A stretch of 64,000 nucleotides of DNA from Mya arenaria (taxonomy: Eukaryota; Mollusca; Bivalvia; Myida; Myidae): assembly GCF_026914265.1 (NCBI RefSeq), contig NC_069125.1, positions 7,522,117 through 7,586,116 on the forward strand, in the 5' to 3' direction. Under the pieces are notes generated by a model. It was given only the letters and a program-made list of their open reading frames with translations, made no database searches and had not been told where the DNA came from. Shown one piece after another: positions 822 to 42,076 of the stretch (position 1 is the stretch's first letter; the number at the start of each line of letters is the position of its first letter). A program made the translations under genes and the position numbers.

Positions 822-3800
822 TTATAAAGCCTTCTTTCCCGCTTCATCAAGCCCCATTTTCTCGAGGATGCGTTTCCACATACAAGAGTCAATGTGGCGG
901 TGTCGCTTTGTGACCAATGCCGGTTCCTCTTCAAGTAGGGTTATAAGCTTTTCATTGCCGTACCACAGGCGGTCTTCGACGAGTGGCCAAAAGAAACGAT
1001 TAGGACCTATTCTACACATGGCCGTGACCTCTACTGTGTCTTCGTCGACATCCATAATGAGGCCTGGATATGGAAGCCCCTCATAATCAACCACACAGTA
1101 GGAACCAATCAGCGAATCACTCAATACTAGTGGCCGGAACGGATCGTTCGTACTCTATAATGAATTTAATATACATGATATACATTTTCAAGCCATACAA
1201 GAAAACGATAGCCATATAAATCACCGTTAGGATATCGTTGTTTGCCTGTAATGGTTTTACACATTGAAACTGCAGATGAAACAGCATCAACATTGCGAGA
1301 ATAATTGGTTCAAAATCGTAAAATAGTCTGAACTGTTAAGACATATAACTTTACATGTATGCATATTATGTTAAATGTATTTTGCAGCGTTAAAATATAC
1401 ATTCGTTTAGCCGATGTAAAGCGTTGATATATTAAGCTACACTACAAATTATAATCAAACCTGGATGAAATCGTCGGCAACAACATCGGCAGAACTGCCA
1501 CCGCTGGAGCCCCCAGGATTCTCCTGAAATTGATATTCACTAAATTATTACTTGATTATTTCTTTCATTTTATATATATCGTAACAAACTTTAGGGTAAA
1601 ATGTGTGACACTTACATGAGACACGTTCTTGCTCATACAAGTCAGAACTGGCGAGTAGCATTCGCAGTCTTTGAAGCAGAAGCAGCTCAGTGGTCTGGAA
1701 CTTATCAGCCCTCTATTGACAACCGTAGCCTGTGGAAAGTAATGTGCAGCATAGTAATGACAGTATATTTTTGCCAATTTAAGTCGATTTATTACTTAAG
1801 GTATCCGACGCGCAAATTACGTTGTTCTTTTGTTTGGCCATTGTCCGTAATGTTAACTTTTTATGCATGGTGATCCCATATCATTATTTATGTATACATG
1901 TAGATAAACCTTTATCATTTCATGTACCTGGTGCATTTTCATAGTTTCAGGCACTGCTGGTATTGTCACATTGGCGATTTGCCTTTCGTAGTTTGCCACT
2001 GCCTCTTCCTTTATCTCGAACATTAGTATCGATGTAGTATCTTTCAGGCCATCTATAAGGTCCGCAGCGCACATGACGTCCATTCCTTTACTATTGACGA
2101 GCTGGTCAGCATGGCGTTTAATTGTTGCCCCTACGCCGTCAGGGGCCCCCCTACCGTGACCAGCTTCTAGAAAGTTCCACGTGCTATATTTAAATCCCAT
2201 GTCGATTATTTCAGTCGAAAAAAGAAAGAAGTTCGACCTAGATCGATACTGAGTGGTTGGGCCATCGCTTACGAAATGCACAGAGTCAACTGACGATTTT
2301 GTTTTCATGTGTTGTAACACTGGATTCAAATGTGCCCATATGGCAGGTGGGGAATGTTTCAGGCAGTCTGATATAGTACTAAAGGCTGTTGCAGTCCCTT
2401 GCAAATATGCGACGCCTGTATGGATCGATATCTGGCGCTGTGACGCCCCAAAATGCATTGACTGTATTTCTTTCCCATATTTGCAATTGAAATTCTCCGA
2501 AAAATCTACGTGTATTATCATGCTTTTTTCATTTAATGTTTGCCGTAGCTGTCTAATTTCTCTGTACTGGTGCGTTATATTAAAGATATGACGGGCTATT
2601 CGATTCAAATCTTTCGTAAATTCCTGTACTAACGTTTCGATTGTCCCTTGTTGATTGGATTTCACTGTAACAGATTGTTTTTTCACTTCAATATTACCCG
2701 CTTCTCTGACCTTTTCCTTTTGTATGGTAACATTTTTCCATTCTTTCCAACTAACTTGCCTTCCACTTTCCAAATTGGTTGCAACCGTTATTTCTTTGCA
2801 TGCCTGACATTCTCTATACATGCATTCTTTTATGCCCTTGTTGCAAACAATTTCTAAAATCAATTCGTCAACACATCGACTTTTAATGATTTTTTTCTGA
2901 GAATAATCTATTTATTTTGTAATTTGTGTTTTCGTGTATTTTGCAAAGACAAGTTTCTCTATCCTTCTCTGTTGCTTTAAGCACCCAGAATGGTTTCAGT
3001 TTACAGAATAGGCTATAGGAAACCTTGCTTTTTTGTTCGCATAGAAATTTTGAATGGAGATTTTTTAAGGTATCATTTAAAAGTCGTATTTGTTTCTTAT
3101 CGCCCGACCGACTGATTGTAGACTTTTTTCCCGCCTTAACTCGCGAATTGTCGTCTCTGTCTAAGAAATTTACAACCATGATTTTCAAAAGAGACGGTCG
3201 TTTAGACGGTCGTTTAGACGGTCGTTTCTTGGTTTTTGTTTTGCTATTAGAGGATATTCCAAATATTTGCTTCTCATACTTGTTTAGTCTGTACTTTTTC
3301 AAAATAGACTTTTTCAGAGCGGCTCCCCTTATTTGTCTTTTCTCCTGCTTAGTTTTGGCGTCTTTATATGATTCCTGAATGTTTCTTACCGTTATAAGGC
3401 GAAGTGTTAAATGTTTTCTCAACTCTTTACTTTCCATTGTTATTTTAACCCTTCTTTCAAGTTCTGTTTCATTTGGTTGTTTTAAGCGATAGGCTCGTTT
3501 ACGGTACTTTTCTTTTAGCCGTCTTTCATGGTCTAAATCTACTTTCAACCTAAATATCTCCCTATATGCTCTAGCCCTATCCCGCCTAGTTACCTTTCAA
3601 CCTTTCTGTTTTCTTGTAATTTGGTCGGCGTCGTTGACTATTTGTATTGGCTCAGGAGTTTGAGGGGGGCTCAGGGTATTTTCAATGTGTCCTAAAATCA
3701 TTTTGTCTCTAATGCGTTTATTTTGGGTGTTTTTCTTCCAGTTGCGCCTAGTTTTCCTTTTCTCCCTCGCATTCATATCTTTTACAGATTTAATATGGCC

Positions 3801-10643: not shown

Positions 10644-12180
<1,537 letters not shown>

Positions 12181-12578: not shown

Positions 12579-15500
12579 ATGCAAACCATTAGAGCATTAT
12601 CTGTGATAAAACATACAAATGTCCTTAGAACATTTTGTCGAAATGCAACAACAGGGGCGGAACGAAAGCGCCTCATAATTCTAGGGACAGGTTGGGGAAG
12701 CTTTAGCGTGCTTAAACAGGTCGACAAATCCAAGTACGACGTCATCGTGGTCAGCCCAAGGAACCATTTTTTGTTCACACCTCTTCTATGTAGCACCACT
12801 GTTGGAACTTTGGAGTTTAGGTACGTTTAACCTGTTTTATTTTCTTTGATGATAATTACTTTTATAATTATAAATTGGTTGCAAAAAAGATAATCAATTG
12901 TTTTGAATGAAAATCATGATACTCAAGACATTTTGTTTGTTTTTTCTTAAAAAATGTTTTCAATGCATTTTAAAAAAAAATGACATAACTGGTAATATTC
13001 CACTTTATATATAATCATATAGAAGTAAACAAGAAGCTTACAAAACGCCTTAAAATTTAAATATTAAAGTATCGTGCAGAGTCAGTGCTTGAAGGTTTGG
13101 CCTGAAAACAACATTTTGCACCGACCAAACCATTTACACACAGTAGTCAATTGGTATTTTTTTTAAAAACTGAACTTTTTAAGTTTGTTTTAATATGTAA
13201 TTTAAAACCCTTAAGGCTTCTTACAGAAGATTACTTTACTACCATTTTCCAATGATGAAAATAATGTAAAGAATAATTAAATAATAAGCCTACCTACCCT
13301 ACCAGTAGTACCTGTTTTTGAAAAGGATGTAACTCTAATCAAACCTTTTTTTTGGGCTTATATTAAATCGGTGAATTTTGAATTCAGACATTTGTATGTA
13401 CCTTGTAAGTTCGAAATTTCAGATCCATAGTAGAACCAGTGAGAAATACTGTGTTCCGACAGACGGACCATTTTCACCTGTCTCGAGCGACCGGCATAGA
13501 CTTCATCAACAGAGTCCTGCATGTGGAAAGTGTACTGAAGTCTGGAGCAAAATATGATCTCATGTACGACAAACTGGTGATCGGCGTGGGATCACTGAGT
13601 AACACATTTAACACCCCTGGAGTCAAAGAGAATGCATTTTTTCTAAAGGTAATGTTTTGTTTGGCATTTTTAATGATTTAATTGCTATAATTTCTGTCAT
13701 TTTTGCAAGTGAAATTATGTTAAAGCATATTTAGACAAAATCAGTATATTTCATTTTTGACAATACATTTAGCTTAAAACCAATCCAATGACTTCTAATG
13801 ACATGTTATTTCTCCCAAATTAAATGGTAATGAAAATTAAGCAAATTATCAATGGGCTTTTAGTAACTAAATGACTATTGATTTAGTGGGTATATCAGTG
13901 CATACGTTCCATTTGTCGCTTGTTTGGGGGAAAATGATAAGATAGGGCTACAATAAATGTTGATATTGCCCAGAATTTCTCAGAGCTAAATAACCTGGGA
14001 AGCCCCCCCCCCCCCCCCCCATATATATATATTATATGTATGGCTTATTTAATATTATACAGATTTTAACTGTTTTCAGGAAGTGGCTGATGCAAGGAGA
14101 ATCCGTAACAAGATCCTTAGCAACTTTGAGCTAGCCACACAGCCCTCTGTTACCCCTGAGGAGAGTGAGAGACTACTGCACATTGTCATAGTGGGAGGGG
14201 GGCCCACAGGGGTCGAGTTTGGGGCTGAAGTGTATGACTTTGTACAACAGGTAAACACTGACAATCACAGACAACTCTTCTTGATATTCCAAATACATGT
14301 ACATTCATCCATAATCAAATTTTTATGTGAATGCCTTACTTAAAGGTACAAACACAAAATTTCTTCATTACAAGGCTTGTGAAAGTTTCAGGAGTTATAG
14401 TTATATATTATGTACAGGTTTTCATTCACTTATTAAATTGATGTTTAGCACCAACTCCTAACATCAGTGCTTCAGCCAGGATTTGAAAAGGGCAGGGTGC
14501 TAGGTTAAAAAGGGCACTTTCAATGAGCCTTGATCAAGCACTTGCAAGGGCCAATGTTGAATTCTTATTGTGTATTTGTTGTAATTACTTTCAATCCTAA
14601 TAGTTAGTTATGAATACCTTTATAGCTGTTTTCTTTAATTTAGTGTCAAAACTATTTATATTTATCATTTTCATACTTATTTCTGAAAACTGACCCTGTC
14701 AAACAAAAGGGCACAGCAGGGTGAAGTAAAGGGCAGCAGGGTGCTGGAAAAGGGCAGCGGGGTGCCCCACCCTGCTATTTAGGCCTAGCTGGAGCACTGC
14801 AACATATTGCATGTCCCCTGACCTACCTGGCTGGGCAGTAACTTTTAGATTAAGATTACTTATTTAGATAATACAAACCTGCTTTTTGTGTACCAGTATA
14901 TCAAAATTGCTGAAAGGTTTAGTTACCAATTATTTGCTTCCTAAACGTAAGAAAACAGCCCTACTTTTTGGCCTTAAAAATCCCTACTGTTTGCCCTTTA
15001 AAATTTTTTCTACCTTTTGCCCTGAAAACCCGTATTTTTTCCGTTTAACATTCCATTTTCGCTACTTTTTATTCCTTAAATCTCTACTTTTTCGAAAACA
15101 TGCTCCTGCTTTTTGCCCTTATTTTTCAAATAAATGCTCATCTTTCTCCTACTATTTTGTTGGTCACTTGAAAGCCTGTATAATATATTGTTGCTTGCAT
15201 AATGTCTCACGACACTCATCATTTTAAGAAAACCTCTTTCTATTTCAGGACGTTTCTCGCTTGTTTAAAGCCAAAAAAGACGGAGTCTGTGTAACACTCA
15301 TAGAATCCAATGAAATTCTCAGCTCGTTCGATGCTCGCCTCAGAAAGTATGCAGAAAAGAAAATACAGGGCAGGAAAGGCTTCACCTTGAAAAGGGACTT
15401 TGTAACAGGTGAAATATACATGTGTTTTCTCGGTGCTCTGGTGTATTTTAACACAGTGGCTTGATTTTTGGAAATGAAATGTTATTATTGACAATAGATG

Positions 15501-18500
15501 TGTTGTGACCATGCTCAATGTCATTGTTCATAATTTTCTATTGTAAAATTAACCGGGATAATGACTATTTTGTGGATGGAATAATGAACATGGTCACAAC
15601 ACATTTATTTTAAATAATAACATTTAATGTCCAAAAATCAAGCCACTGTATTTTACCAGTTGATGAAAACAATTTAAAAATAGATTATTCACATACATGC
15701 CATATCCCCCTTGCAGGGGGAGAATCTGAAAATGTTCATGTATCATACTTAAATGTCTATTAAAATCAATTGTTTTCCTTGGTCAAAGTTACTAACAGGG
15801 AGTTAAGCACAAATAACAGTAGGATTACAGTGTTATTTTTAACTTAAAATGGAGCAAAATCTCTCAAAATGTACAACAATTCTTTTGTAATTCAAATTCT
15901 TCAAAACCAGGAATTTTAAGGTAGTTCTGCTTTGTTAGATTTATCTTTTCAAAAGTAAATCAATGATTTAGCTTCTTGTTGTTATTTTCACAAAAAGGTG
16001 CCCCCAAAAACCTAGATTGAGCACCGATTCAGTTTTGTCACAAAATTAATTTGTTTTCACTGAGTGATGTAAAAGTTATTTTAACTTTGGAGTTTGCAAC
16101 ATATATGAATGTATGGACTTGTATATGATGTATATTACTTTAATGATCAAAACACAAAAAGCGAATGATAAAAAAGTATTAGAGATATTTTGGCGCTTTT
16201 TTAAACAGGAAGCTGTGGCCACGTAGCGATTAATTAAAAACTAACATCTGTAAACTTAAATATTTTTTATCCGTTTATCTATCAAAAAAAAAGTTTTTAC
16301 ATCAACCTATATTGTGCACCTTCAAGAAAACAATCTAAAATGGTTAAAGATGTTGTTGTGTTTTCCAGCTGTGCACGAGGATCATGTGCATCTTAAGAGT
16401 GGAGAGAAGATTCCATGTGGTCTGGTGGTCTGGAGCACAGGGCTGGCTCCTAGGGACTTTGTCAGAGAGATGGACATACCCAAGAACGAGAGAGGGCAGG
16501 TAGGCGGAACTGTTTGATTGTCTGTTTTCGTCTTCAAGGAAATGTTCAAGGCATTGTCTTGCTTATGGAGTTATGGTCTGTGGTGTTTTGTAGTTTTGCT
16601 GACGTTGTAATGTTGGCCATGACTTAAGATGCATAGAACATTTAAAGGGTAATTGTTTGATTCAGTGTAAGGTCTCTATTTCGTTGAGTGAACACCAAAA
16701 GCATCATGTACTTTTGGTGTTCTTGAACTGAAAATTATTGCAATCAAGTTTTTTTTGGGCCTTTTTGGGGCAAAAATTTGTATAATTCCCCTTTTTGCCA
16801 AATAACACTATTTTATCAAAGGGCTCTGCCGCTATTCCCTTAGAAGTGAAAAAAAAAACACTGCTATCTTACATGGACACTTAAACAAAACAAAAATTGT
16901 CTTAGTATATGCCTGATACTGATATAAAGCGATAGTTTATTGCAGTTTTTCATAAGAACACATTCAATTGTATATGAACCTAACCTTTTTTTGGAAATCT
17001 TGCAATTGAAATTGTGTCCCAGCACTGTGCATGCTAAAGTTTACCGTAATACTAAACTGTGAGCAGGCGAAACAGTGAAATATCAAATTGATATCTCTAT
17101 TAATCACTGAAACATATAAATTAAATAATAAACAAACTTTACATATGTTTGCTCTGAAATTAGTCACATCACACACACACATTACAGAAGTGTGAGGCAA
17201 GTCCCATAACTACTTGAATGTTTCGGGTTTGCCCCATGATGAACTGAGTAAAACCGACAAGGATTATGTTGGCCTACATTGTTTGCTGTGTTCTTTAAAA
17301 CTGTCACACATACACAACATCATGTTATATTCTTACAGATCTTGACGGACCGAAACCTGAGAGTGCTAGGAGATCCCAGTGGAAACGCTTTTGCTATCGG
17401 AGACTGCGCTGACATCAAAGACCTCACTCTACCTTGTACAGCACAGGTATACGACATAATTGATTTATTAAGATCGATACCAAATATATAATATTATATA
17501 TATATATATATATAAACAAAATTGTTAGATTAAGCTTGTCTGCTTTCGAAGAAAGAAGTCTTAAGTTGTCATTGCCTTGCTGTCACTGGTTGTCATGTTA
17601 GCTATATCTTAAATGTATTTTTCTGACGGATTTGGTGCAGAAGTTCTGTCCCCAAACCAAATGCTAAACCATATATCTTTTTACCCTTATTTATTCATAA
17701 ATATCAAAATAAAATTGCCATTTTTATGTTTTTAAATAAAACATAAATCTATTTTATAAATACCAAAAAATTGAACCCCAAACCACCCCCCAAATCATTT
17801 TGTATGGAAAAGTTGTTGTATGCTTAAAGAAAAACTGTAACATACTTTAATCTTAAAGATGCACTCTTACTCCCAAATAAGATTTACCACAATTAATACA
17901 GTGGAAACTCACTAAACCGGACAAGGTCCGGACTGGGCAAAATTTCCGGTTTAGTGAGGATTCCGGTTTAGTGAGGATTTGATGAACGGAGTAAGTTTAC
18001 TCAAAATATTAACTGAGTTAACCTTTAAAGGGAAGTTGATGTTTAGACAGAGGTTGAGACATGATTAAAGCACATGCAAAAGTGATAAACATAATTAAAC
18101 ATTTCTGCGTTGTTATAATCATCTTTTTTTTTCAAGTCTTAAAATCAAAGTCAAGTTTGACTTTGACTTGACTAGTTCTTTATTTTCTGCAACAAACAAA
18201 TTAATGTTTCAATCAATTTTCTTTTCACAAGTTTGATTATCGTTTGATTATCGCGCGGCAGTCAATGTACAGTGCAATCATCATTGTCGATTATCGAGTT
18301 ATAACAACATCACAGGTGCAATATTTAACGACGCACCGGCTGTCAAATTAAAGTGACACATGATTCGCGAATTCCTAATACACAAATCATTTTGACATGT
18401 TTGAAAAAAATATACATCCGGTTTTGTGAGGTAAAATTACGTTGACAACTAACAAATTTTCTCGATTTTTGTCCGGTATCCGGAATTCCGAGGTTCTGGT

Positions 18501-21500
18501 TTTGTAGGGTTTATTTTACATTAAAAGTAGAAGGGGAATACCGGGACTCTGAAAAAAGTCTGGTATCCCGAAGATTCCGGTTTTGTGGAGATCTGGTTTA
18601 GTGAGTTTCCATTGTAGAATTGTTTAGATATATATTTCAAAAAAGATCAATATTAATGTCAAAATGAATGGTTCTTATGAAGGATACCGAGTTTCATTTG
18701 AAAGAAAGGTTCACAAAACACGGTATTTCTACCTTATGAGACGATGGTAAATCACAGGAAATCTTTTAGCACTCACCAATCATTTAATATTTTTGTGTTT
18801 TCAGCTATTAAATACACTGTTACAATCTTGTATCAGTAATAAATATTTTACATAAATGCATTATTTAGTAAGTAGTTAAAGGTTTATCGCTCAAAATTGA
18901 TGTTTGTAATACATGTTTATGGATTGCTTTTGAATAAGAGTGTCACTTAGTTTAACCATCTATTTTTTAAAGCATTTTAAAAATTATTTGAGTTGAATGA
19001 GTACAAATTGTATCTTTTCTTTAATTCAAACTGTTTTATTCAAAGTAGAAAGATGCTTATTGTATATTCTACAATTAAAATTTGGAAGCATAATTTTTCA
19101 AAATTGAATACACTTGGAAAGCATACAGTTCAAAATTTGACACTTATGAACATTTTTAATTTTGAGGTTGCTTCTGAAATGTGGCCACTAGGTCCTGTTT
19201 CAATAAAGAGCTTACTGGTATACTTACTTGTTATTTCTTATGCCCCCGAAGGTGGGCATATTAAAATCGCACCGTCCGTCTGTCCGTGTGTCCGATAACT
19301 CGTGTCCGGGCTGTAACTTTCCCTTGTATGGACAGATTTAAAATAACTTGCCACATGTGTTCCACATACCAAGACGACGTGTCGGGTGCAAGACCAGTGT
19401 CCCTACCTCTAAGGTCAAGGTCACACTTAATGTTTATTCACAATGGAGTGCTGCATATAAGGACATAGAGTATAGGTTGGCGTGTCCGGGCTGTAACTTT
19501 CCCTTTTATGGACAGATTTTAAAATAACTTGCCATATGTGTTCCTCATACCAAGACGATGTGTCCCGTGCAAGACCCATGTTCCTACCTCTAAGGTCAAG
19601 GTCACACTTATGTGTTTATTCACAATGGAATGCTGCATATAAGGACATAGAGTATAGGTTGGCGTGTCCGGGCTGTAACTTTCCCTTGTATGGACAGATT
19701 TTAAAATTACTTGCCACATGTGTTCCACATACCAAGACGATGTGTCCCGTGCAAGACCCGTGTCCCTACCTCTAGGTCAAGGTCACATTTAGTGTTTATT
19801 CACAATGGTGTAAAATAACTTGCCACATGTGTTCCACATACCAAGACGACGTGTCGCGTGCAAGAGCTGTGTCCCTACCTCTAAGTTCAAGGTCACATTT
19901 AGGTGTTTATTCACAATGGAGTGCTGCATATAAGGACATAGAGTATAGGTTGGCGTGTCCGGGCTGTAACTTTCCCTTGTATGGACAGATTTTAAAATTA
20001 CTTGCCACATGTGAGCCACATACCAAGACGACATGTCGCGTGCAAGACCCGTGTCCCTAACTTTAAGGTCAAGGTCACACTTATGTGTTTATTCACAATG
20101 GAGTGCTGCATATAAAGACATATAGTATAGGTTGTGGTGTCCTGGCTGTACCTTTTCCTTTTATGGACAGATTTTAAAATAACTTGCCACATGTGTTCCT
20201 CATACCAAGACGATGTGTCGCGTGCAAGACCCATGTCCCTACCTCTAAGGTCAAGGTCACACTTAGGTGTTTATTCACAATGGAATGCTGCATATATAAG
20301 GACATAGAGTATAAGTTGTCGTGTCCGGGCTGTAACTTTCTCTTGTATGGACAGATTTTAAAATGACTCGCCACATGTGTTCAACGTACCAAGACGACGT
20401 GTCGCGTGCAAGACCCGTGTTCCTACCTCTAAGTTCAAGGTCACACTTAGTGTTTATTTACAATGGAATGCTGCATATATGGACACAGAGTATAGTGTCG
20501 TGTCCAGGCTGTAACTTTCTCTTGTATGGACAGATTTTAAAATAACTTGCCACATGCGTTTGACATACTAACACGACGTGTCGGGTGCAAGACCCATGTC
20601 CCTACCTCTAAGGTGAAAGATACTCTGAGTGTTTATTCACAAAGGAATGCTGAATATAAGGACATAACAGTGTAGGTTGTCAAGTATGGGTGGTATTTTT
20701 TGATACTCAGAGGCAATTTAAAATAACTTGCCATATGTATTTGACACGTAAAGGCAAGATCAACTTTTCATGTACTGGCCTTGTTCATAGGTCATTGTCA
20801 CATTCGGGGGCATTCGTAACATACTGTGACAGCTCTTGTTTTTATTTATTTAAAAGTGAACTGATCTTGAACCAGTATTAAAAAATAAAAACAAAGTTGA
20901 GGAAGTTTGTGACATTTATACAGAACTGATTTAAAATTCTAAAATTACAAAATAATTAATTAAATCCTTTATTGAAATTTGTGCCCAGTACTGATTTCAG
21001 TTTCATTCAGGAAGAATTCAGAGAAAATGGAAACAAAGGTTTATTTTGCAATCTGCACAATATTTCCAAACTTTAAGATTCAAAAAGTCTAAATAATATT
21101 TCGGCATCTAAATATTTCAAAACAGGTAAACAATTTAAAAAGAAAAAAAAAATCAGAAATATTTATAATTTTAATCTCATCAAATCTCTTGAGAAAAAAA
21201 CAACCATTCTCTTGTATGTTTGGTAAATATTATTCACTACTATAATGAAGATTTTATTAGTTTTCGGTAAAAGGTTTGACACTTATTAGTAGGACGAATT
21301 AACGTCAATGCCAAGTTATATTACTCTAGTGGGATACATAGGGGATATTATGACAGTATCACGTCGAGTTTGGTGTCAACACCAAGCCGTTGAGACTGTG
21401 TTACTGAAAGAAAGTGTTATTGAAGAATAAGTTGATATTGTAAAAAACATTCATTTAGACATCATGTAAAAAGTAGCACTCAACACATGCTACCATGAGG

Positions 21501-24136
21501 ATACTGGTTTGAATAACGACTGAAGTGTGATACGGATTTCTCAATATAGCTTTGTGTAATTTTCAGTGTTAATCATTTAATTATTGAATTGCATGTATAG
21601 GATATTGATAAGCATATTATAAAAGATAATATGTAATAGTTGTATCATTTAGAAACATTCAACTTTGTGTGATAAATGTATGTTTTCATTTACCAAATAT
21701 ATGTACTTTTTCCTCCTAGGCCGCCTTAAGACAGGGAGAGTACTTTACATGGCAGCTCAGTACGGGCTTCACAGATAAGTTACTATTGGTCATGTGATGG
21801 ATGTATTCTTTTCTCCCTCCAGGTTGCCGAGAGACAGGCGGAGTACCTTATATGGCAGCTTAGTACAGGCTCTACAGATGAGTTCCTATTGGTCATGTGA
21901 TAGATGTATTCTTTACTCCCTTCAGGTTGCCGAGAGACAGAGAGAGTACCTTATATGGCAGCTTAGTACAGGCTCTACAGATAAGCTCCTATTGGTCATG
22001 TGATAGATGTATTCTTTACTCCCTTCAGGTTGCCGAGAGACAGAGAGAGTACCTTACATGGCAGCTTAGTACGGGCTCTACAGATGAGCTCCTATTGGTC
22101 ATGTGATAGATGTATTCTTTTCTCCCTTCAGGTTGCCGAGAGACAGAGAGAGTACCTTACATGGCAGCTTAGTACGGGCTCTACAGATGAGCTCCTATTG
22201 GTCATGTGATAGATGTATTCTTTACTCCCTTCAGGTTGCCGAGAGACAGAGAGAGTACCTTACATGGCAGCTTAGTACAGGCTCTACAGATGAGCTCCTA
22301 TTGGTCATGTGATAGATGTATTCTTTACTCCCTTCAGGTTGCCGAGAGACAGAGAGAGTACCTTACATGGCAGCTTAGTACGGGCTCTACAGATGAGCTC
22401 CTATTGATAATGTGATAGATGTATTCTTTTCTCCCTTCAGGTTGCCGAGAGACAGAGAGAGTACCTTACATGGCAGCTTAGTACGGGCTCTACAGATGAG
22501 CTCCTATTGGTCATGTGATAGATGTATTCTTTTCTCCCTTCAGGTTGCCGAGAGACAGAGAGAGTACCTTACATGGCAGCTTAGTACGGGCTCTACAGAT
22601 GAGCTCCTATTGGTCATGTGATAGATGTATTCTTTTCTCCCTTCAGGTTGCCGAGAGACAGAGAGAGTACCTTACATGGCAGCTTAGTACAAGCTCTACA
22701 GATGAGCTCCTATTGATCATGTGATAGATGTATTCTTTTCTCCCTTCAGGTTGCTGAGAGACAGAGAGAGTACCTTACATGGCAGCTTAGTACGGGCTCT
22801 ATAGATGAGCTCCTATTGGTCATGTGATAGATGTATTCTTTTCTCCCTTCAGGTTGCTGAGTGACTTGGACAGTACCTTACATGGCAGCTCAGTACAGGC
22901 TTAACAGATGAGTTCCTATTGATAATGTGATAGATGTATTCTTTTCTCCCTTCAGGTTGCTGAGAGACAGAGAGAGTACCTTACATGGCAGCTTAGTACA
23001 GGCTCTACAGATGAGTTCCTTTTTGTCATGTGATAGATGTATTCTTTTCTCCCTTCAGGTTGCTGAGAGACAGAGAGAGTACCTTACATGGCAGCTTAGT
23101 ATGGGCTCTATAGATGAGCTCCTATTGGTCATGTGATATTATTTTCTCCGTTCAGGTTGCCAAGAGACAGGGAGAGTACCTTATATGGCAGCTCAGTATG
23201 GGCTCTACAGATGAGTTCCTATTGATCATGTGATAGATGTATTCTTTTCTCCCTCCAGGTTGCCCAGCGACAGGGAGAATACCTTACATGGCAGCTCAGT
23301 ACGGACTTTGCAGAGGAGTTCCTATTGGTCATGTGATAGATGTATTCTTTTCTCCCTTCAGGTTGCCGAGAGACAGGGAAAATACCTAGCACAGCATCTT
23401 AATACCGGTTCTACCAACAAGTTCTCGTTCACCAGTGCTGGCATGCTGGCTTACATCGGAGGGTACGATGGACTTACTGATGTACCCCAGACAAAACTGC
23501 GAGGTATGGCAGTAATATGGATTGTTCAGAGTTTTTTAGACTGTACCCTTAACCTGATTCGCTGTTTAAGTATAGTATTCAGTTGTGGAAAACACACATT
23601 ATGAAAGGTTAGTTGTGGTAGTTCTTTTTTTCAGGCCACACTTAAAGGTTCATTTGTAAATCTTTGGAGTTATCAAAAGTAAATCGTTTTAATTCCCTTA
23701 AAATGTATTAACAGTTATTTGAAATAAGTTCTATATATAAATGATAAAAATAACAGTCAGCAACAAATTTGTAACTGGGACCTGGATAGCTGATGTAAGA
23801 ATTTCGAATATTTCAACAATTGTACTTACCGGTATTAGGTTGTAGAATTGTAAATGGTTTTACAATGAAAACTTAGTGTTAAAATAAATTTGTTAACTAT
23901 CAGACTTGAATAGGAATCTTCAAATTTACTGGACATTGTTTATTATTTTTATAATTCAAATTGCGGTTTGTGGATAATTGTATGATTTTAAAATTTCCTT
24001 TTCAGGATTCCCCTCTTGGTTTCTATGGCGATCTGCCTACCTGACAAAGTTAGGAAGTTGGAGACTTCGTATGCAGGTGCCCCTCGACTGGACTAAGACT
24101 CTACTATTTGGCAGGGATGTCTCACGATTTGAATAG
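12579..24136 (+). CDS. Type II (alternative, rotenone-insensitive) NADH dehydrogenase
   Basis: Mitochondrial flavoprotein that passes electrons from NADH to ubiquinone without proton pumping, in the inner membrane. Exons: 12579-12820, 13423-13648, 14080-14250, 15249-15408, 16369-16499, 17339-17446, 23362-23503, 24006-24136. All have GT/AG borders and matching phases and give 436 residues. The N-terminus is basic and Ser/Thr-rich, as a mitochondrial presequence. FAD-binding GTGWGS is at 36-41, followed by [12 protein letters not shown]; the NADH-binding fold [12 protein letters not shown] is at about 195-206; [13 protein letters not shown] and AIGDCAD (329-335) close the FAD site; the C-terminus [12 protein letters not shown]...FGRDVSRFE is the family's membrane-binding tail. 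No EF-hand insert is seen. Vertebrates lack the enzyme; several invertebrate phyla keep it. Intron 6 (5.9 kb) carries the exon-7 decoy array and TCAAGGTCA sites described separately. The ATG at 12579 is chosen because the frame upstream lacks another ATG. Confidence 0.95.
14460..14800. repeat. Intron 3 repeat with AGGGCA(C/G) motifs
   Basis: GGGTGC and AAAGGGCA words recur many times (14490-14515, 14705-14770), first as GGGCAGGGTGCTAGG and again as GGGCAGCAGGGTGCTGG. It looks like a decayed dispersed repeat; the family is unknown. Confidence 0.4.
14940..15180 (+). repeat. Dispersed repeat rich in CCCTACTTTTTG
   Basis: Short, irregular repeats of CTACTTTTTGCCCTT end in GGTCACTTGAAAGCCTG. The same combination occurs in the GDAP1-like gene at 32170-32640, ending GGCCACTTGAAAGCCTGAC. 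Confidence 0.55.
15454..15648. mobile_element. 195-bp palindromic MITE in intron 4
   Basis: Ends CAGTGGCTTGATTTTTGGA and TCCAAAAATCAAGCCACTG are exact inverted repeats, and the pairing continues inward through GTTGTGACCATG / CATGGTCACAAC. Flanks TATTTTAACA (15444-15453) and TATTTTACCA (15649-15658) match at 9 of 10 bases, a plausible target duplication of 9-10 bp (Mutator-like size). Confidence 0.75.
17476..17512. repeat. (TA)n microsatellite
   Basis: AT/TA dinucleotide run within intron 6, just after exon 6. Confidence 0.8.
17852..18949 (+). mobile_element. MITE family A split by a pogo-like element
   Basis: Left end CTTAAAGATGCACTCTTACT at 17852 and right end GAATAAGAGTGTCACTTAG at 18949 are inverted repeats of family A. 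The copy is interrupted at a TA by the element at 17899-18614. Removing the insert restores ACAATTAATAGAATTGTT, which matches uninterrupted copies (for example 6028-6045). Confidence 0.8.
17899..18614. mobile_element. 716-bp pogo/Tigger-like non-autonomous element
   Basis: Terminal inverted repeats CAGTGGAAACTCACTAAACC and GGTTTAGTGAGTTTCCATTG (one mismatch) are flanked by TA on both sides. The words CCGGTTTAGTGAGGATT and CCGGTTTTGTG recur inside both ends. The CAGT...ACTG-type ends with TA duplications are the hallmark of the pogo branch of Tc1/mariner. No transposase ORF is seen. Confidence 0.85.
19240..20835 (+). repeat. Tandem array (unit about 180 bp) with TCAAGGTCA in most units
   Basis: About nine diverged units carry GTGTCCGGGCTGTAACTTTC, TATGGACAGATTTTAAAA, ACCAAGACGACGTGTCG, CCCTACCTCTAAGGTCAAGG and GTTTATTCACAATGGA. 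The array opens with TATGCCCCCGAAGGTGGGCA, a start I associate with a common mollusc dispersed repeat. TCAAGGTCA is intact at 19415, 19596, 19777, 19887, 20069, 20251 and 20435; the last two units are degraded. Small ORFs in the array are by-products. Confidence 0.85.
21720..23361 (+). repeat. 103-bp tandem array copying the acceptor and 5' half of NADH dehydrogenase exon 7
   Basis: Sixteen units precede the real exon 7. Acceptor-side starts are 21720, 21823, 21926, 22029, 22132, 22235, 22338, 22441, 22544, 22647, 22750, 22853, 22956, 23059, 23156 and 23259; the real exon at 23362 is again exactly 103 bp on. Each unit keeps a pyrimidine tract and AG (mostly TTCTCCCTTCAG) followed by an exon-like stretch reading [16 protein letters not shown], against the real [16 protein letters not shown]. 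The unit frame ends in TGA after LLLVM. Most units carry a GT after codon 23 (CTATTG|GTCATG), but it is changed in several (near 22405, 22711, 22917, 23219). Confidence 0.93.
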
Positions 24137-28017: not shown

Positions 28018-31000
28018 ATGGCTGACGTATCGTTGTATTATTTTCCCGGATCTTACTATTCTCTAAAGGTAAAACAGCTTTATTTCATAATATTGAACAC
28101 GAACTTTTTGGTATAAATATATATGACTTTAAATGTTACTGCGATTTGTCGGAGACGGATTAATTCAAAGTTGAAATGTTATCTTAAGCAACATTTTTTA
28201 TCGTGTCTTTGGAAAAATATAAAAACAAAAGGAAGCACACAACCGTGATTAAGTATTTAAAATTTGAAACATACATTATAATTGCATATTGAAGGCGTTT
28301 TTCTGAAAGTTCTCAAAAATTATAATATAAAAAATGTGAAAAACAAATAGTGAAAAATATTTTTTTTATAAATACGCATTTTGTACTGTATATTTATAGT
28401 ATAATATACAGTTAAATGCCTATTTATAAAAATAATATTTTTCAATATTTTTTTTTACATTTTTTGGTATCATTTTTAGTTTGGAATTATAAGATTTTTT
28501 TTATTTAAAAAAATGATTGAGTATGAAAATACGGTGCCAGTGGTCCTATCGAAACAATTGTACATTTTTTAACACTGAACCTTTATCATTCAAAGTCATA
28601 GATTTGACTGTTTTTAGCCCATTTTAATTAGAGCATACATTTTTTATCAATGACACACTCAATTCAGTATAAAATAGCTTTTAGATTTTGATTTTTATGG
28701 AATATAATTATCACAAGTGAGCGTAGCGTGCGCCGTGCATTTTTGAACACATGAGCCATGTGAGCGATGATACTATGGGCACAGCTTGCGTTAAATTTAT
28801 CATGGTCAAACCTCTGATGAATCAGATTGGCGTCGTGATATGTTCCATTAAATTCAAAATTTGAACGATAACAAATTTGCAGTTTTGCCTATTTGATCAC
28901 GTACACAATTGTGTTTGCTCATGTAGACCACATACAGGAAAAATCACTGACTTATCTTCACCTGGCACAGTGATTACGAAGTCTTAAATCTGCACTCTCA
29001 CAGATATACCGTTTTTACAACTTTTTTTTATTTTTATACACGAGCCGGCTCAAAAAAAGACAAAAAGATCAATACAATGAATAGTTTGCTGTGTTTATTT
29101 TTCATTTTAAAGCTGCACTCTGACAGACCTACCATGTTTACACTTTTTTTGTTATTTGTCATCGAAAAAGCAAATTTTTGCGTAAATATCTGCAAACCAA
29201 TGATTAAGGTTTGCTGACAAAAGATCAGATCGCAGATTTTTCATATTTCCGTTCGAAAATTTATGTTTTATGGCTTAAACCGTTACTTACTGTTTAAGAA
29301 AAATGCATAACACATTATTTTTTGAACTTAAATATAAAACTCTACGATCTAATGTTTTGTCAGCAGTCTTATATAACTGGTTTCCATGCATTTTCGCAAA
29401 AACTGGCTCGTTCCAAGACAAAAAATTTAAAAAAGTTGTCAAAACGTTCAATCTGTGAGAGTGAAGCTTTAAGTCTGAGTTCAGACTGGCTTAAGACTCA
29501 AAACGGCAAAACTTCATTTCATTGTGATTTTTTTTCTATCAAAGCATTGATTGTAAAATTAGCTGAAATATATTGCTTTTTGAATATTTTACTATTATTT
29601 ACTTATTGTTTGTAAAAGAAATGGTAGAAATTATTGATTTTTGTTCCTTCATAAAAATGCTCTTCTGAGTCTGAGTCTAGACTTGAACTTGAAACAGTTC
29701 GTAATCATGGCCCCAGGCGTCTTGTGAGAAATATTTTTTTTCAAATTAAATCCTTAATACAGCGATTTCATTTTGCGAACAATGAAGGGCAAACTGTCAA
29801 TTGTTTTATTGTTCATATTAGACTAATTATATCTTAAAGATGCACTATTTTATTTACTCCCAGATAAGATATACTACAATAAATAATATTGTTTTAATAT
29901 TTAAAAAATGATGAATAAACGTCGAATACAATTGTTCTTATGAAGGACACCGAGTTTGATTTAAAAGAAATGAGCATAAAACACAGTATTTCTACCTTGT
30001 GAGACTATATGATTTTGAACAATAGTGTCACTTTAAGTAAATGCTAGTTGCACTATCTTTCAGGCAGTTCTAGCGCTGTACGAAAAAGACGTAGAGTTTA
30101 AAGACAAGTATGTGAACATCCACGCTGGCGAACAAAATGAAGAATGGTACCTTCGAATCAACCCGAACGGGATGGTTCCGGTTTTACAAATTGGAGACAA
30201 GTATTACAGTGAATCGGAGCACATCATAGATGTCGTGGACCACACGTTTAGTTCAGGTAGAAATGGGTGATGGTCCGTTTTGGAAACCCTTCAAATGCAA
30301 CAGTCTTAAAGTTTGATTAGCTCGTCTGTGTTTCAAAGGAAAAGTCAAGTTATGTTTTGTGATACTCTTGCCGTCGCCGTCTAAATTCATAACTAAAACC
30401 TGTTAAAACTCTCACTTCGAAACTTAGTACACATACTGTTGGAACAACACGCACATAGGTAGCAAGGCCGACAACTCTGGTTTAAATAAAGTTTGGCTTA
30501 GTCCCCTTTTTGGTTAAAATAATAAAACAGACGAGTATTGACATCCATGTGTGGTGCTCTAGTTTTTAGAATTACAGCAATGTATATGAATTTGTAAACT
30601 GAATACCAGTGGATTGATTTGTTTTTATTTACGGAAAACACAAGAAAAGAGCAAATATCGCTATACAATGTATGTAATTGCAATTAAACTTGATCGATTT
30701 ACAGCCAATTCAGGTGCGCAGCTGACTGTCCGCTGTTGCGTAATAATTTTGACAGGTCACAGTTTTTGTCATACCAAAAACCCCAAATTTGAAATAAACA
30801 ACCGAAATGGGGTATGGGGAGAAGGGGTTAATATGATGTCCGGCATCGATCTGCGTAATCCCAAATTGACCCTAGCTACGCGCCCGCAATTACATGGAAA
30901 CCCTACCCATTTCGGCTAAAAAACTCGTTGCCAGAAGAAACGCGGTCGTGTATCTCTTCAATAAAATGTAAACTAGAGGGAAACAATTTATGCCATAAAT

Positions 31001-33257
31001 TTAATGCCACATCCTCTTTAGGTCCAACACTTGTACCGGATGTGGAGACTGGGCTTGGAGCTGAGGTCAAACGATTTCGGGAGCTCCTGGATTCCGTCCC
31101 AGTGGATGTAATCACCTTTGGACTGCTTGCCAACCCTCAGCTTCGCACCACAGAGATGAAAATGCCAGCAGCATTTAAGAAGCTTACAACACCTGCAAAT
31201 ATCGGTAAGCTTGTGGAAACTAACTATACTATTTATATCAACGTTTCACCGTCATACGTTTTTTTTAAAATGCCATATTTTAATCTAATTTATCATGGAC
31301 GTCCTTTTTTCGAAGACCATCAAGTCTTTGTCGGCAGTGTTGTCCTTGTACAATAACTTAGCTGAAATGCCGTATCTTTGTTTCTGTAAAGCATTATGTG
31401 TATACGTGGCCTATCTTGTAGGCTGTAAAACGTTCGAGTTATACTAATTATTTTAATGTTTTTATAAGTATGGTATAAACGTATATTAAATAAATCGCAC
31501 GAAAATAAGACAACAGATGTTTAAATCATATAGAAAACACGCTATACCATGATTAACCTTATTATGCCGGATTTTGAATAAGAACATGCCATAACTATTT
31601 TTCAGCGAAGAATTTTGCAGCATCAATTGAAAAGTACAAGAAACAATTACAGACATGCCCAAGCGATCTTAAACAAAATATTGAGATGAAGCTTCAAAGG
31701 ATTACCGAAAGGAGGGACAAAGTTATGAACACGCTCAAAGTGCAAGCCACCTTGGACGACTTGGAGAGTGTATTTAACCAACTGGCTGACAGGTTGAAGA
31801 AATCAGCGGCAGGTAATTCATTTAATGACGTGTGTTAGTACATTTGTACTGAGTGTGTGGACTGACTGTGGTTGTGGCGGATCCGTGGTCTAGTGGTAAC
31901 ACACTTGACTGTCAATCCAGGGGTCGGAGGCACAGTGATTTGGAGGGAATGAGCTGAATTTTGACCTTTACAAAATTTTGTGACATTTTACCTAAAATAA
32001 CCTAAAATAAATATTTTTTCTTTAGATTCATCAAGGTATTAGTGACCTTTGATGAATCTGAAGAAAAAAATAATATTTTAGGTTATTTTAGGCAAAATGT
32101 AACAAAATTCAGCTCATTCCCTCCAAATCACTGTGGTCAGAGGTTCAATTCGGAAGCCAGGTTTTCAAGTGGGCCCTTATTTTCCTACTTTTCCCTACTT
32201 TTTTGGTTTGGCTCCTACCTTTCCCTACTTTTCTTGAAAAAGCGCTACTGTCCCTACTTTTTTGTAAAAATAGTTCGAGAAATAATAGAACAGTTTTAAC
32301 TTAATGCGTTGATTGAAATTATCTAAATCTACATTTTAATAAGAAGCCATTTCTAGTATATTTGTAGGATTAGTTTGATGCAGTAAGTCTTCAGTGCTGC
32401 TAGAGGGGTTCTATTATGAGAATGAGTGGTGCATGTTGACAAGTCAGAGACACCAATTTCAGGTTCATCTGCTCAGCATGTGGCTGAATCCCTCTTGGAA
32501 CACTGGTTTCTAAGCAAAGATAACTACATGTACATTACAGTTGATGAATAGGCTTAATAATGATTTATTTGCATCCAAAAAGGAATTTTGAAAAAAAAAC
32601 ACGCTACTTTTTGTTATTGGCCACTTGAAAGCCTGACTTCCCCGCCGCACCATGAAAACATACTAATCCTCTCCCGGAAGGGAGTTGCTATACAATGGTG
32701 CACGTTAAAGAACCAGAGTAACTTTAACCAGGGTTACATTCTGTCTGGGCCTAATATGACTTACTATCTAATCGTAGCACTCGCCGAATGGGCCTTGCCC
32801 GAGTGCGAGTATACACTAACTCAAAAGAGCTGTGAAAAAGTAAGCAATTTAAGTAGTCCAACTGATTTATGGTTGTTGCTTTTGAAGTTTTCAACTTTAT
32901 TTTTCAGAGTGTTCTGAAGGGGAAGATGTATGGCTTTGTGGTGCGAGGTTTACCGCGGCGGACATCACAGCAGCGATGCTTATGTTTCGACTCGAGATGG
33001 TCGGAGTTCTTTCGCGTTTTGCATCACCAAGCGGGCGACAAGAGGTGCTCAGTTACTACACAAGACTTTCTGCGAGACCAACAGTTAAAAGAACCTATGC
33101 CCTAGTAGAGAAATCGAAGTCTGTGTATATGATGTATGCCGTGAAAAAGTATGGGAAAATTGCGTTGAAGATTGGACTTGTGGTTGGTTTAGTTGGTCTT
33201 GGATACCTTGGTGTTCGCGAGTACAGCAGAGCATATAAAGGCATAAAAAATGCTTAA
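28018..33257 (+). CDS. GDAP1-like GST-fold protein with C-terminal membrane anchor
   Basis: Resembles ganglioside-induced differentiation-associated protein 1, a tail-anchored outer mitochondrial (and peroxisomal) membrane protein that affects mitochondrial fission in vertebrates. Exons: 28018-28068, 30064-30256, 31022-31204, 31606-31812, 32908-33257; phases match and the product has 327 residues (human GDAP1 358, from memory). The N-terminal thioredoxin-like domain starts MADVSLYYFPGSYYSLK and contains WYLRINPNGMVPVLQIG and the SE.HIIDVV helix, matching the glutathione-site segment of GSTs. The middle helical insert (GAEVKRFRELLDSVPVD, then a Lys/Gln-rich helix in exon 4) is characteristic of GDAP1. 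The GST C-terminal core appears as DVWLCGARFTAADITAAML, and the end has a hydrophobic helix (IGLVVGLVGLGYLGV) followed by a basic tail. Whether it binds glutathione is not decidable here. Confidence 0.92.
29107..29472. mobile_element. MITE family D in intron 1 of the GDAP1-like gene
   Basis: Ends TTAAAGCTGCACTCTGACAG and CTGTGAGAGTGAAGCTTTAA are inverted repeats with TTAA at both borders. The family recurs at 49397-49759; a fragment of it (TGCACTCTCACAGATATACC) also lies at 28990. Confidence 0.75.
29833..30046 (+). mobile_element. MITE family A, internally deleted
   Basis: Begins CTTAAAGATGCACTATTTTA and ends AATAGTGTCACTTTAAG. About 160 bp of the interior is missing relative to the copy at 50101-50476. 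It ends 17 bp before the acceptor of exon 2. Confidence 0.7.
31876..32165 (+). repeat. tRNA-derived SINE head interrupted by a foldback element
   Basis: CCGTGGTCTAGTGGTAACAC (A-box like) and TTGACTGTCAATCCAGGGGT form a tRNA-like 5' part. The B-box like AGAGGTTCAATTCGG follows only after the insert at 31931-32135. The related SINE 3' end (GTTAAAGAACCAGAG and CAGGGTTACATTCTGTCTGG) lies at 32700-32750, separated by the CTACTTTT repeat. Confidence 0.7.
31931..32135. mobile_element. 205-bp foldback MITE inserted in the SINE
   Basis: CACAGTGATTTGGAGGGAAT at the left end is exactly inverted at the right end, and pairing continues inward (AGCTGAATTTTG / CAAAATTCAGCT, then CCTAAAATAA / TTATTTTAGG). 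Flanks GTCGGAGG (31923-31930) and GTCAGAGG (32136-32143) match at 7 of 8 bases, consistent with an 8-bp hAT-type duplication. Confidence 0.8.
32170..32760 (+). repeat. CTACTTTT-rich repeat and SINE 3' domain in intron 4
   Basis: Irregular TTTCCCTACTTTT repeats at 32185-32265 end with GGCCACTTGAAAGCCTGAC at 32620, as in intron 3 of the NADH dehydrogenase gene. The block at 32660-32760 (CTCCCGGAAGGGAGTTGCTA, GTTAAAGAACCAGAG) is the 3' portion of the SINE family. Confidence 0.6.
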
Positions 33258-33455: not shown

Positions 33456-33868
33456 CAGTAAAACTCGTGTTCCAGTTAACTTGTGTCCCAGTAAACTTGT
33501 GTCCCAGTAAACTCTTGTCCCAGTAAACTCGTCTCGTGTACCAATAAATTCGTGTTCCAGTAAACTCGTGTTCCAATAAACTCGTGTTCCAGTAAACTCT
33601 GTCCCAGTAAACTCGTGATACATTTAATATGTGTCCCAGTAAACTCGTGTTCCAGTAAACGCGTGTTCCAATTAACTCGTGTCCCAGTAAACTCGTGTCC
33701 CAGTAAACTCGTGTTCCAGTAAACTCGTGTTCCAGTAAACTCGTGTCCCAGTTAATTCGTGTTCCAGTAAACTCGTGTTTCAGTAAACTCGTGTTCCAGT
33801 AAACTCGTGTCCCAGTAACTCATGTCCAAGTAAACTCGTGTCCCAGTAAACTCGTGTTCAAGTAAACG
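33456..33868 (+). repeat. 16-bp minisatellite, unit CAGTAAACTCGTGTCC/TT
   Basis: About 25 units of 16 bp, mostly CAGTAAACTCGTGTYC, begin 200 bp after the GDAP1-like stop codon. Units with one or two substitutions and a few shortened ones are mixed throughout. Confidence 0.9.
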
Positions 33869-34328
33869 CGTGTTTCACTGACCGTTCCAATGCAGTAATC
33901 CGATCATTTATTAATAAAGCTATTTCGATGCTTGTTTGGTCAGCTTGTGGTGTTTGTACGTGTGTTTGTTTCTCTCGTTGTCGCCGTTTCTGACCCTTGC
34001 ACTGTGCCTTTAGACAGAGGTTATATTTGAAGTTCTTACAACTGCGTTTGTCCCTTTCATTTTCTTTTTTTTTTAATATTGAAATAGTATTCATAACATT
34101 TATAATAAGATCAGTGACACTCGTTCTGTCGTGATCAAATACATGTAGTAAAATAACCCTGAATACATTTTGTTACATTTATTTGGATGAAAGAGTTTAT
34201 GTAATATCCAGCAAACAATTGCTTACAAGAGTCGAGTATATTTCACCTATTCAATTGAATAAGTCTGCTCTTTTTCAATGATGAAACATGATCTAAATAA
34301 AATAGCCCATTAAAATTATTATTAACTT
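33869..34328. other. Gap between minisatellite and MITE B
   Basis: No feature recognised; a short minus-strand ORF at 33858-34094 has no domain and is basic by composition. Confidence 0.35.
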
Positions 34329-40090: not shown

Positions 40091-41419
40091 TGTTCTTGCT
40101 GCTCTCGGAAACTAACAACAAAATATTGAGGCTCTACTGGTTTGCTCTAGGTAAGCCGACGTCTTATATATGTTCAATCACTTGATGTAAAGCAAATGCT
40201 ACAGTCATGATACTTGCATATAGCTGAACCATCAGCTCATATCGTGTTGTATTACCGAACACTTGGTATTTGGAGAGATTATTTTCCTATTTTCAATGTT
40301 TACAGGTTTTGATCAGATTCGCCTGTCAGACCAATATCACGCCTCAATCGCGTTTTTACTGCCCCGGTCACTTTCAAGTTCATACTGTCACCAAACATGA
40401 GAAAAGACGGTGATGACTTGACCTTTTTGCACCGGACGTTTGAGGGGTCTCAACGTAGCGGCGTTATCGTTTGAATTGCATCCCTCCGTCAGAACCGAAT
40501 TTATTTGGTATTTTTTATAAAATGTTGGCAGGCGGTTTCGGTCACCCCACCCGAAAAAAAAAACATTTTGTAGTCCAAGATGGTGCATTTTGTGTGCGTA
40601 TTTTGTTACCTTTTTTCTTTCTCCTGTATTGAAATAAAACTTGGACGATCTTAGGACCTCAGATCTTTAACGCCGAGTGCGTCACCCCCCCCCCCCCTCC
40701 CCCTCCTCGGATCCGCTAGTGCAGTGTTTTTATTCAAGCCATTAAGCTACGATAAGAACTAAATAAAGGAGTTTAAATACAAATAGGGCCTTGCAGAACG
40801 AAAAACAAAACAAAACAAAACACAAAACGGTACTGTCATCGAACTGAATGTTCAAATGCATGCAATTTTCATCTAAAGTAGAGATATGAAGGACTATATT
40901 GAAAAGACATCCACGCTTCACGACTGTAGTTGATAGATGTCATGAAAATATCAGGCGCACAGCGATAAGGTATGGCGATCGTACCATTCGATCAATTCTG
41001 GCGTCCTTTATTGAGGTCGCAATTATTGTATTCCTTCCAAGATGAACGTGTTTTCGTCATTTGAAGGGCATATATATTGATAATGTGTGGGTACGCGTAA
41101 TGAAAGGTTAACCCAGGCATAGTTGTTTTATATCTGTATGTGATAAAGAGACAGTTTTCATCTCTTGCTTTATAATGTGATAAGTGGTTGGTGTTTGCAA
41201 AATGTATCAATAGCAGCTGTAAGTCGATAAGGGTGAAACACTCCATTTAGGAACGCCGGACTCGGGCTCATTTTGGCGTTTGCGATTTCACGCATAATTA
41301 AACTACATTCGCATTCCAATACATAAATGTGGTAATAGTACAAACGTATACATATTTTTTTATAATTGTTTGGCTAAAGAGAAGAGATAATACTCGATTT
41401 CTACGAATCAAACGTCAAA
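40091..41419. other. Upstream region of the lectin-Kazal gene
   Basis: No gene recognised. It contains a C-homopolymer run at 40686-40710 and an (AAAAC)n stretch near 40800-40830. The promoter of the minus-strand gene should lie just above 40090, but no clear TATA box is seen. Confidence 0.35.
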
Positions 41420-41858
41420 TCCGACTACGACCTCGACGTCAGTTCCGTCCACGACCCCGACGTCAGTCCGTCTATGAGCACTAGCACGACATCAGTTCCG
41501 ACTACGACCCCGACGTCAATTCCGTCTACGACCCTGACGTTACTTCCGTCTACGAACACGGCGTCAGTTTCGTCTACGACCCCGATGTCAGTTCAGACTT
41601 CGACCCCGACGTCAGTTCCGTCTACGAGCACGACGAGAGACGAGGACGGTGTCAGTTCCGTCTACGAGCACGGCGTCAGTTCCGTCTACGAGCACGACGT
41701 CAGTTCCGTCTACGACCCGACGTCAGTTCCGTCTACGACCCCGTCGTCAGTTCCGTCTACGAACCCGGCGCCAGTTCCGTCTACGACCCCGACGTCAGTT
41801 CTGTCTACGAGCACGGCGTCGGTTCCGTCTACGACCCCGACGTCATCTCCGATCATGG
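41420..41858. repeat. 24-bp minisatellite, unit TCCGTCTACGACCCCGACGTCAGT
   Basis: About 18 units of 24 bp. Since 24 is a multiple of three and the unit lacks stops in several frames, the array opens long reading frames (for example STTPTSVP repeats at 41474-41881 on the plus strand). No signal peptide, splice site or flanking domain supports translation. Each unit contains the palindrome GACGTC within CGACGTCAG. Confidence 0.85.
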
Positions 41859-41862
41859 TCGG

Positions 41863-42076
41863 TATTCATAAATCATCTTAAGGCATGTCCTAACCTTAGT
41901 TGTTTTCCTTCGTTAAGTTTGTCACTGGACATATGGAATCGTAACTTAATGATAGCTTGAATACTTTTTTTATTAATATTATGTGATTTACATACTTTAA
42001 ACGGAAAAAATATTGAAGTACTTCCCGTTAAATTTAACTTAAGTTAAGAAATGACTTAGTTTAAGTTGTTTTTGAA
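41863..42076. mobile_element. MITE with GGTATTCATAAATCATCTTA ends
   Basis: GGTATTCATAAATCATCTTA at the left pairs imperfectly with TTAAGTTGTTTTTGAATATC at the right, and inner AAGGCATGTCCTAACCTTAG-type words pair with TTAAGTTAAGAAATGACTTA. Confidence 0.5.

Follow-up and report, generated by a model that had tools for sequence, protein, structure and literature searches.

A 64,000-nucleotide stretch of the soft-shell clam Mya arenaria (contig NC_069125.1, positions 7,522,117 to 7,586,116 of the forward strand; hereafter the window) carries the gene of a type II NADH dehydrogenase (NDH-2), the sixth intron of which ends in a tandem array whose units repeat the acceptor of exon 7. The eight joined coding exons form one open frame without internal stop, the start codon being our choice, and intron 7 measures 502 nt. 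The exon model agrees with the first-pass annotation on the end of exon 6 at 17446, on exon 7 at 23362-23503 and on phase 0 at the start of exon 7. The features of the locus are as follows.

12579..24136, + strand: NDH-2 gene, 8 coding exons, 436 residues, seven GT-AG introns
12579-12820, 13423-13648, 14080-14250 and 15249-15408, + strand: coding exons 1-4 of NDH-2
16369-16499, 17339-17446, 23362-23503 and 24006-24136, + strand: coding exons 5-8 of NDH-2
17447..23361, + strand: intron 6, 5915 nt, the final 1642 nt being the array
21720..23361, + strand: minisatellite of mirage type with 16 units, all of 103 bp but unit 14 (97 bp)
22029..22646, + strand: homogenised core of the array, units 4-9, 0-2 differences from the consensus
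22853..22955, + strand: unit 12, an internal unit that has diverged (13 differences), with TGA as its fourth codon in frame
23362..23503, + strand: true exon 7, 142 nt, donor GAG/GTATGG after 23503

The product matches Pfam domains Pyr_redox_2 (PF07992, residues 31-352, 4.7e-41) and NDH2_C (PF22366, residues 373-431, 1.3e-14). Its best chain in the PDB is 5jwa, a type II NADH:ubiquinone oxidoreductase that we take to be the Plasmodium enzyme (E 3.4e-66), and the other top chains are rotenone-insensitive NADH-ubiquinone oxidoreductases, presumably yeast Ndi1. Judged by these matches, the host gene is an NDH-2, which makes the mitochondrial dehydrogenase gene of the earlier annotation more specific; its mitochondrial location and NADH:quinone activity are those expected from the family. 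Searched against the genome as protein, the product found, up to E 10, nothing but the exons of this locus (8 matches), and the whole array used as a DNA query matched this locus only. No second copy of the gene or of the array was found in the genome by these DNA and protein searches, in which only the best candidates were scored. A 19-base boundary pattern, allowing up to 2 mismatches, occurs 28 times in the genome (5 times for the reversed-pattern control). Of the 28 matches, 16 fall within the array or on exon 7, and 14 of these are exact, the other two having 1 and 2 mismatches; the 12 elsewhere each carry 2 mismatches, and none are spaced 103 bases apart.

Anatomy and divergence of the array

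Tandem Repeats Finder delimits the array at 21729-23387, with a period of 103, 16.2 copies, 93% matches and a score of 2758. Splitting at the AG dinucleotide yields 16 decoy acceptors, from 21720 to 23259, followed by the true acceptor at 23362, the spacing being 103 and once 97. The 16 tandem decoy units first annotated in front of exon 7 are confirmed, and the annotated length of 103 bp holds for all units but unit 14 (97 bp). Each unit begins with some 62 nt that resemble exon 7, goes on with about 13 nt of junction sequence unlike it, and closes with a 28-nt intron tail (unit positions 76-103) containing a stop codon, a polypyrimidine tract and the AG; the tail of one unit is thereby the acceptor that opens the next. 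Exon 7 adjoins unit 16 without a gap. The AG is present in 16/16 units, as annotated. GT follows it in exon 7 and in 15 decoys, the exception being unit 1 with GC. AGGT therefore stands at 16 of the 17 boundaries and AGGC at that of unit 1, whose acceptor reads CTAG/GCCGCC rather than CAG/GTTGCC.

The unit consensus is identical to exon 7 at 51 of 75 bases, compared to a mean of 18.6 and a maximum of 34 for 5000 shuffles. With bases 19-75 only, 34/57 are identical and the best shuffle reaches 28. The likeness drops to chance level at about +62; the exon homology claimed earlier is thus real, but it extends over some 62 nt instead of 69, the about 13 nt that follow being unlike. Exon 7 differs from the consensus at 24/75 bases of the exon-like part, and the 28 bases that precede it together with its first 15 nt are identical to the consensus. 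Upstream of unit 1 there is no clear further array: 20 bases around 21668-21687 weakly resemble the intron tail (score 25), and three blocks of 103 bases agree with the consensus at 32, 32 and 24 of 103 positions. The array has the anatomical features of the mirage class of minisatellites: the unit spans an intron/exon boundary, the authentic boundary adjoins it, and the splice signals are kept.

The number of differences from the consensus is 0-7 in units 2-11 and 5 each in units 13 and 14, and rises to 15, 13, 8 and 10 in units 1, 12, 15 and 16. Pairwise identity averages 0.918 with a minimum of 0.804. The earlier term near-identical overstates the likeness of some units. From this pattern we infer an old founding duplication and a later homogenisation that took in the real acceptor and kept the remainder of exon 7 apart.

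Variability is not evenly spread along the unit. Variable columns number 5/28 in the intron tail and 33/75 elsewhere (Fisher p 0.021). When changes are counted the figures are 9 and 68 (p 0.0013), or 8 and 48 without CpG-type columns (p 0.017). In the four most diverged units, a group chosen after the table had been seen, the tail holds 3 changes and the rest 43 (p 0.0007; 3 vs 34, p 0.0053, without CpG-type columns). The remaining 12 units show no tail effect (6 vs 25 changes, p 0.42), and the last 20 columns alone give 4/20 vs 34/83 variable (p 0.12; permutation 0.064). All these tests treat related units as independent, so that changes common by descent are counted repeatedly. Selection on the acceptors is accordingly a hint, not a result. 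The variable columns of the decoys were also sorted by codon position (10, 9 and 14 columns; 26, 15 and 27 minor cells); neither these numbers nor the early stop in unit 12 points to a clear coding constraint on the decoy exons.

Probable choice of acceptor and predicted fate of decoy transcripts

Splice sites were scored with simple frequency matrices, which are neither MaxEnt nor trained on clam genes. The acceptor of exon 2 scores -4.4 despite a clear frame, so the absolute scores mean little. On this scale the decoys score 6.3-10.4, the true acceptor of exon 7 9.7, and the remaining six native ones between -4.4 and 5.8; the acceptor claimed for every decoy unit is borne out, and by this simple matrix it is strong. 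Only 11 of the 3242 AGs on the + strand of the window score at least 9.69, all in the array or at exon 7, and 2/3172 do so on the - strand. The donors are different. The best donor scores 0.25 in unit 1 and at most -0.74 in the other 15 units, compared to 0.82 to 6.24 for the seven native donors. Taken alone, therefore, no unit seems able to be defined as an exon. An exon ending at the 23503 donor would measure 142 nt if begun at the true acceptor, 245 nt at decoy 16, 348 nt at decoy 15, and 445-1784 nt at decoys 1-14. The first proposal that the splicing machinery must pass 16 equal competitors is not supported: besides exon 7 itself, the last two decoys are the only ones no further than some 350 nt from its donor. 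Exon 7 also contains a second GT at 23463 (AGG/GTACGA), the donor score of which (2.4) exceeds that of the native exon 6 donor (0.8) with the same matrix.

A transcriptome study of alternative splice sites reports a significantly weaker preference for the upstream 3' site where introns are long and exon definition applies; its conclusion is that, between long introns, splicing tends to choose the sites nearest to each other across the exon (PMC9225289). Given an intron 6 of 5915 nt and an intron 7 of 502 nt, mainly correct splicing would be expected, with some leakage. Strict silence of the decoys is not expected, and leakage should fall on the last decoys.

Splicing from exon 6 into a decoy would add 25 residues and then a stop in 15/16 cases, in line with the first-pass annotation; unit 12 departs from it, adding 3 residues before an in-frame TGA. 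As exons 1-6 encode 346 residues, the decoy product would have 371 residues (349 for unit 12) and lack NDH2_C, so the predicted loss of the C-terminal tail stands. The next junction follows 167-1706 nt downstream of the stop in 16/16 cases. Nonsense-mediated decay (NMD) usually acts on stops more than 50-55 nt before a junction, and is therefore expected here. Both truncated and NMD-targeted products had been envisaged; the stop positions make NMD likelier than a truncated enzyme for any leaked transcript.

The reading we regard as probable is that of a mirage-type minisatellite in which the true acceptor is mostly used and the array is tolerated rather than used. A segment made up of the end of intron 6 and some 60 bases of the start of exon 7 would have been duplicated in tandem some time ago, and the duplicate then expanded and was partly homogenised by unequal exchange to 16 units, as the divergence of the units suggests. 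The real exon 7 acceptor would in effect be the final member of the array. It would be chosen in most cases because it is the closest, at normal exon length, to a good donor (23503), the units having, by the computed scores, no comparable donor; decoys 1-14 would require exons of the lengths given above, all of at least 445 nt. The likeliest error would be leakage into decoys 15-16, giving an NMD substrate. Several observations weigh against this reading. The decoy acceptors, at 6.3-10.4, score in the range of the true one (9.7), and all but one continue as AG/GT. Units 4-9 have 0-2 differences and the edge units 1, 15 and 16 have 15, 8 and 10, yet unit 12, with 13 differences, sits inside the array, so divergence is not confined to the edges. 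The lower variability of the acceptor part (5/28 columns) is not predicted by plain neutrality. Finally, competing 3' sites at least 20 nt apart still favour the upstream one overall in the published data (PMC9225289), and the decoys need not be silent.

In a rival reading, the decoys would capture part of exon 6 splicing in proportion to unit number, the early stops lowering NDH-2 output through NMD. Such a rheostat is compatible with a strong acceptor and an NMD-prone stop in every unit and with the less variable acceptor part, above all in the diverged units. The variability test, however, weakens for the last 20 columns alone and shows nothing in the other 12 units, and the amphioxus mirages are reported as regularly spliced. 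The regulatory reading has one weak statistical hint in its favour, and we consider it unlikely. A self-correcting ladder, in which each AGGT decoy used would rebuild a CAG/GTTGC donor and be spliced onward to exon 7 by dual-specific or recursive splicing, leaving the mature mRNA unchanged, is in keeping with the GT after nearly every AG. Dual-specific AGGT sites are documented in human genes, including a tandem array in UBC (PMC10809524). Since the rebuilt donor scores -0.92 to -1.67 compared to 0.82 for the weakest native donor, and the GT is accounted for by the coding need for Gln-Val at the exon 6/7 joint, the ladder appears very improbable. The broader proposal is doubtful: here selection would maintain the decoy acceptors for use, and the number of units would set how much exon 6 splicing is diverted into NMD or into an AG/GT ladder ending at exon 7.

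Unit number could instead be a product of assembly, through haplotype mixing, collapse or expansion. Tandem arrays are generally error-prone, and the amphioxus BflGb6 mirage is described as having appeared misassembled in a draft genome (PMC3087553). The clam units, however, carry private changes at fixed places (units 1, 12 and 16, and a deletion in unit 14), and an array of 1.6 kb is short for long reads; what is likely the source assembly is described as using PacBio (PMC10663159). We see little chance of this explanation. RNA structure was considered as a cause of silent decoys, the decoy tracts pairing with their own purine-rich exon-like part and the true acceptor staying open. A single unit folds at -31.0 kcal/mol with its tract paired (z -1.65), most shuffles of the exon 7 segment fold better than the segment itself (z +1.68), and in 4 of 5 fixed contexts the decoys are on average costlier to open than the true acceptor. 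The order is reversed, however, in the context -60..+100, and local folding of the whole region ranks the true acceptor 10th, 6th, 8th and 10th of 17 for accessibility in four settings. As the opening costs depend on context and the ranks do not single out the true site, masking was rejected; of all the alternatives we give it the least credence.

Relation to known mirages and other arrays

The closest likeness is to the mirages of amphioxus. In BflGb6, tandem copies of an intron 3' end and the 5' part of the next exon, 81-100% identical, number 6 and 3 in two haplotypes, and RT-PCR (reverse transcription PCR) suggested regular splicing (PMC3087553). The name 'mirage' goes back to Adh3, a locus found to show somatic instability, and it has been suggested that new introns may arise by way of mirages (PMC3087553). 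PGBD5 and TnC of the lancelet carry similar repeats, and the Adh and TnC mirages are said to yield no aberrant mRNAs (PMC3902484). As in Adh3, BflGb6, BflGb9, TnC and PGBD5, the clam array is a tandem duplication of an intron/exon boundary with the authentic exon adjoining and splice signals in many units. Homogenised units, with boundary units outside the homogenisation, are a further mark of the amphioxus mirages, to which the clam array with its diverged internal unit 12 may correspond in part. As in BflGb6, the clam unit joins an intron 3' end to the 5' part of the following exon. It differs from BflGb6, with its 6 and 3 units of 150-160 bp, in having 16 units of 103 bp, and from the amphioxus mirages in its host, a mollusc, in its gene, in the AG of every unit and in one diverged internal unit. 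It is best filed as a new, long example of the mirage class, in a bivalve; the class itself is not new. Among the matches listed in a search of open-licence PubMed Central, none concerned mirages in molluscs or otherwise outside cephalochordates, which does not amount to their absence from print.

Like the clam array, human UBC has regularly spaced AGGT in a tandem repeat (PMC10809524), and the dual-specific sites are reported to match the consensus less well than single-use sites. AGGT at each boundary is found here in 15/16 decoys and exon 7. The UBC units, however, are coding, 228 nt long and removable in frame, whereas those of the clam are intronic, 103 or 97 nt long (103 not being a multiple of 3), and carry in-frame stops in 16/16 cases, so that their removal would not be frame-neutral. 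Internal tandem repeats that change the structure of human paralogues (PMC2812944) likewise involve minisatellite expansion within genes.

Genomic setting and significance

The frequency of such arrays was estimated from 20 of 60 drawn 10-kb stretches (200 kb, 1342 N) of the first 31 Mb of contigs C1-C16. This sample contains 10 array loci with a period of at least 40 and at least 5 copies, about 50 per Mb. With so many arrays in the genome, some should start on splice sites by chance; at a rough guess, taking this gene's seven acceptors per 64 kb as a guide, hundreds of splice-site arrays may exist. Among 22 array rows (period at least 20, at least 5 copies, several rows per locus), none has a unit acceptor above 4.3 and one lacks an AG. 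This array is thus unusual in its acceptors, as expected from an origin in a real acceptor.

Intron 6 contains a second tandem array, and the window is rich in minisatellites. The consensus of the second array resembles, by eye, the reverse complement of a 180-bp array in one sampled stretch (L029:8818-9725), and it may belong to a dispersed satellite family. These arrays and the other features of the window are listed below.

19301-20681: second tandem array in intron 6, units of about 182 bp
33456-33874: minisatellite, 16 bp x 25.9
50851-51699: minisatellite, 46 bp x 18.8
56801-57742: minisatellite, 76 bp x 12.4
61478-61869: minisatellite, 59 bp x 6.6
41412-41881: 24-bp array, 18.2 copies, overlapping an open frame of 135 codons whose translation is mucin-like and rich in Ser, Thr and Pro
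11536-12180, same strand as NDH-2, about 400 bp upstream of its start: cytidine/tRNA-adenosine deaminase-like open reading frame (dCMP_cyt_deam_1, 6.9e-22)
30037-33257: piece with a glutathione S-transferase N-terminal domain (GST_N_3, 5.1e-12), GDAP1-like by eye only; a piece further downstream, which has a hydrophobic tail, matched nothing in Pfam
1853-3548 (- strand) and 58292-60956 (+ strand): long open reading frames that by eye resemble transposon and LINE-type (long interspersed nuclear element) reverse transcriptase pieces; the frame at 1853-2863 (- strand) had no Pfam match

The finding is only moderately surprising, since the literature already describes mirages and their seeming lack of harm. 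The array suggests that mirages, known from lancelets, occur in another animal phylum, in a minisatellite-rich genome. If the transcript is correctly spliced, it would constitute a natural competition experiment in which a single transcript offers 17 acceptors that hardly differ in tract and AG. The acceptors vary mainly in donor distance and downstream sequence, and would test exon definition against proximity or first-come rules. Were the decoys selected and used after all, a length-polymorphic intronic minisatellite would act as a heritable dial on a mitochondrial NADH dehydrogenase.

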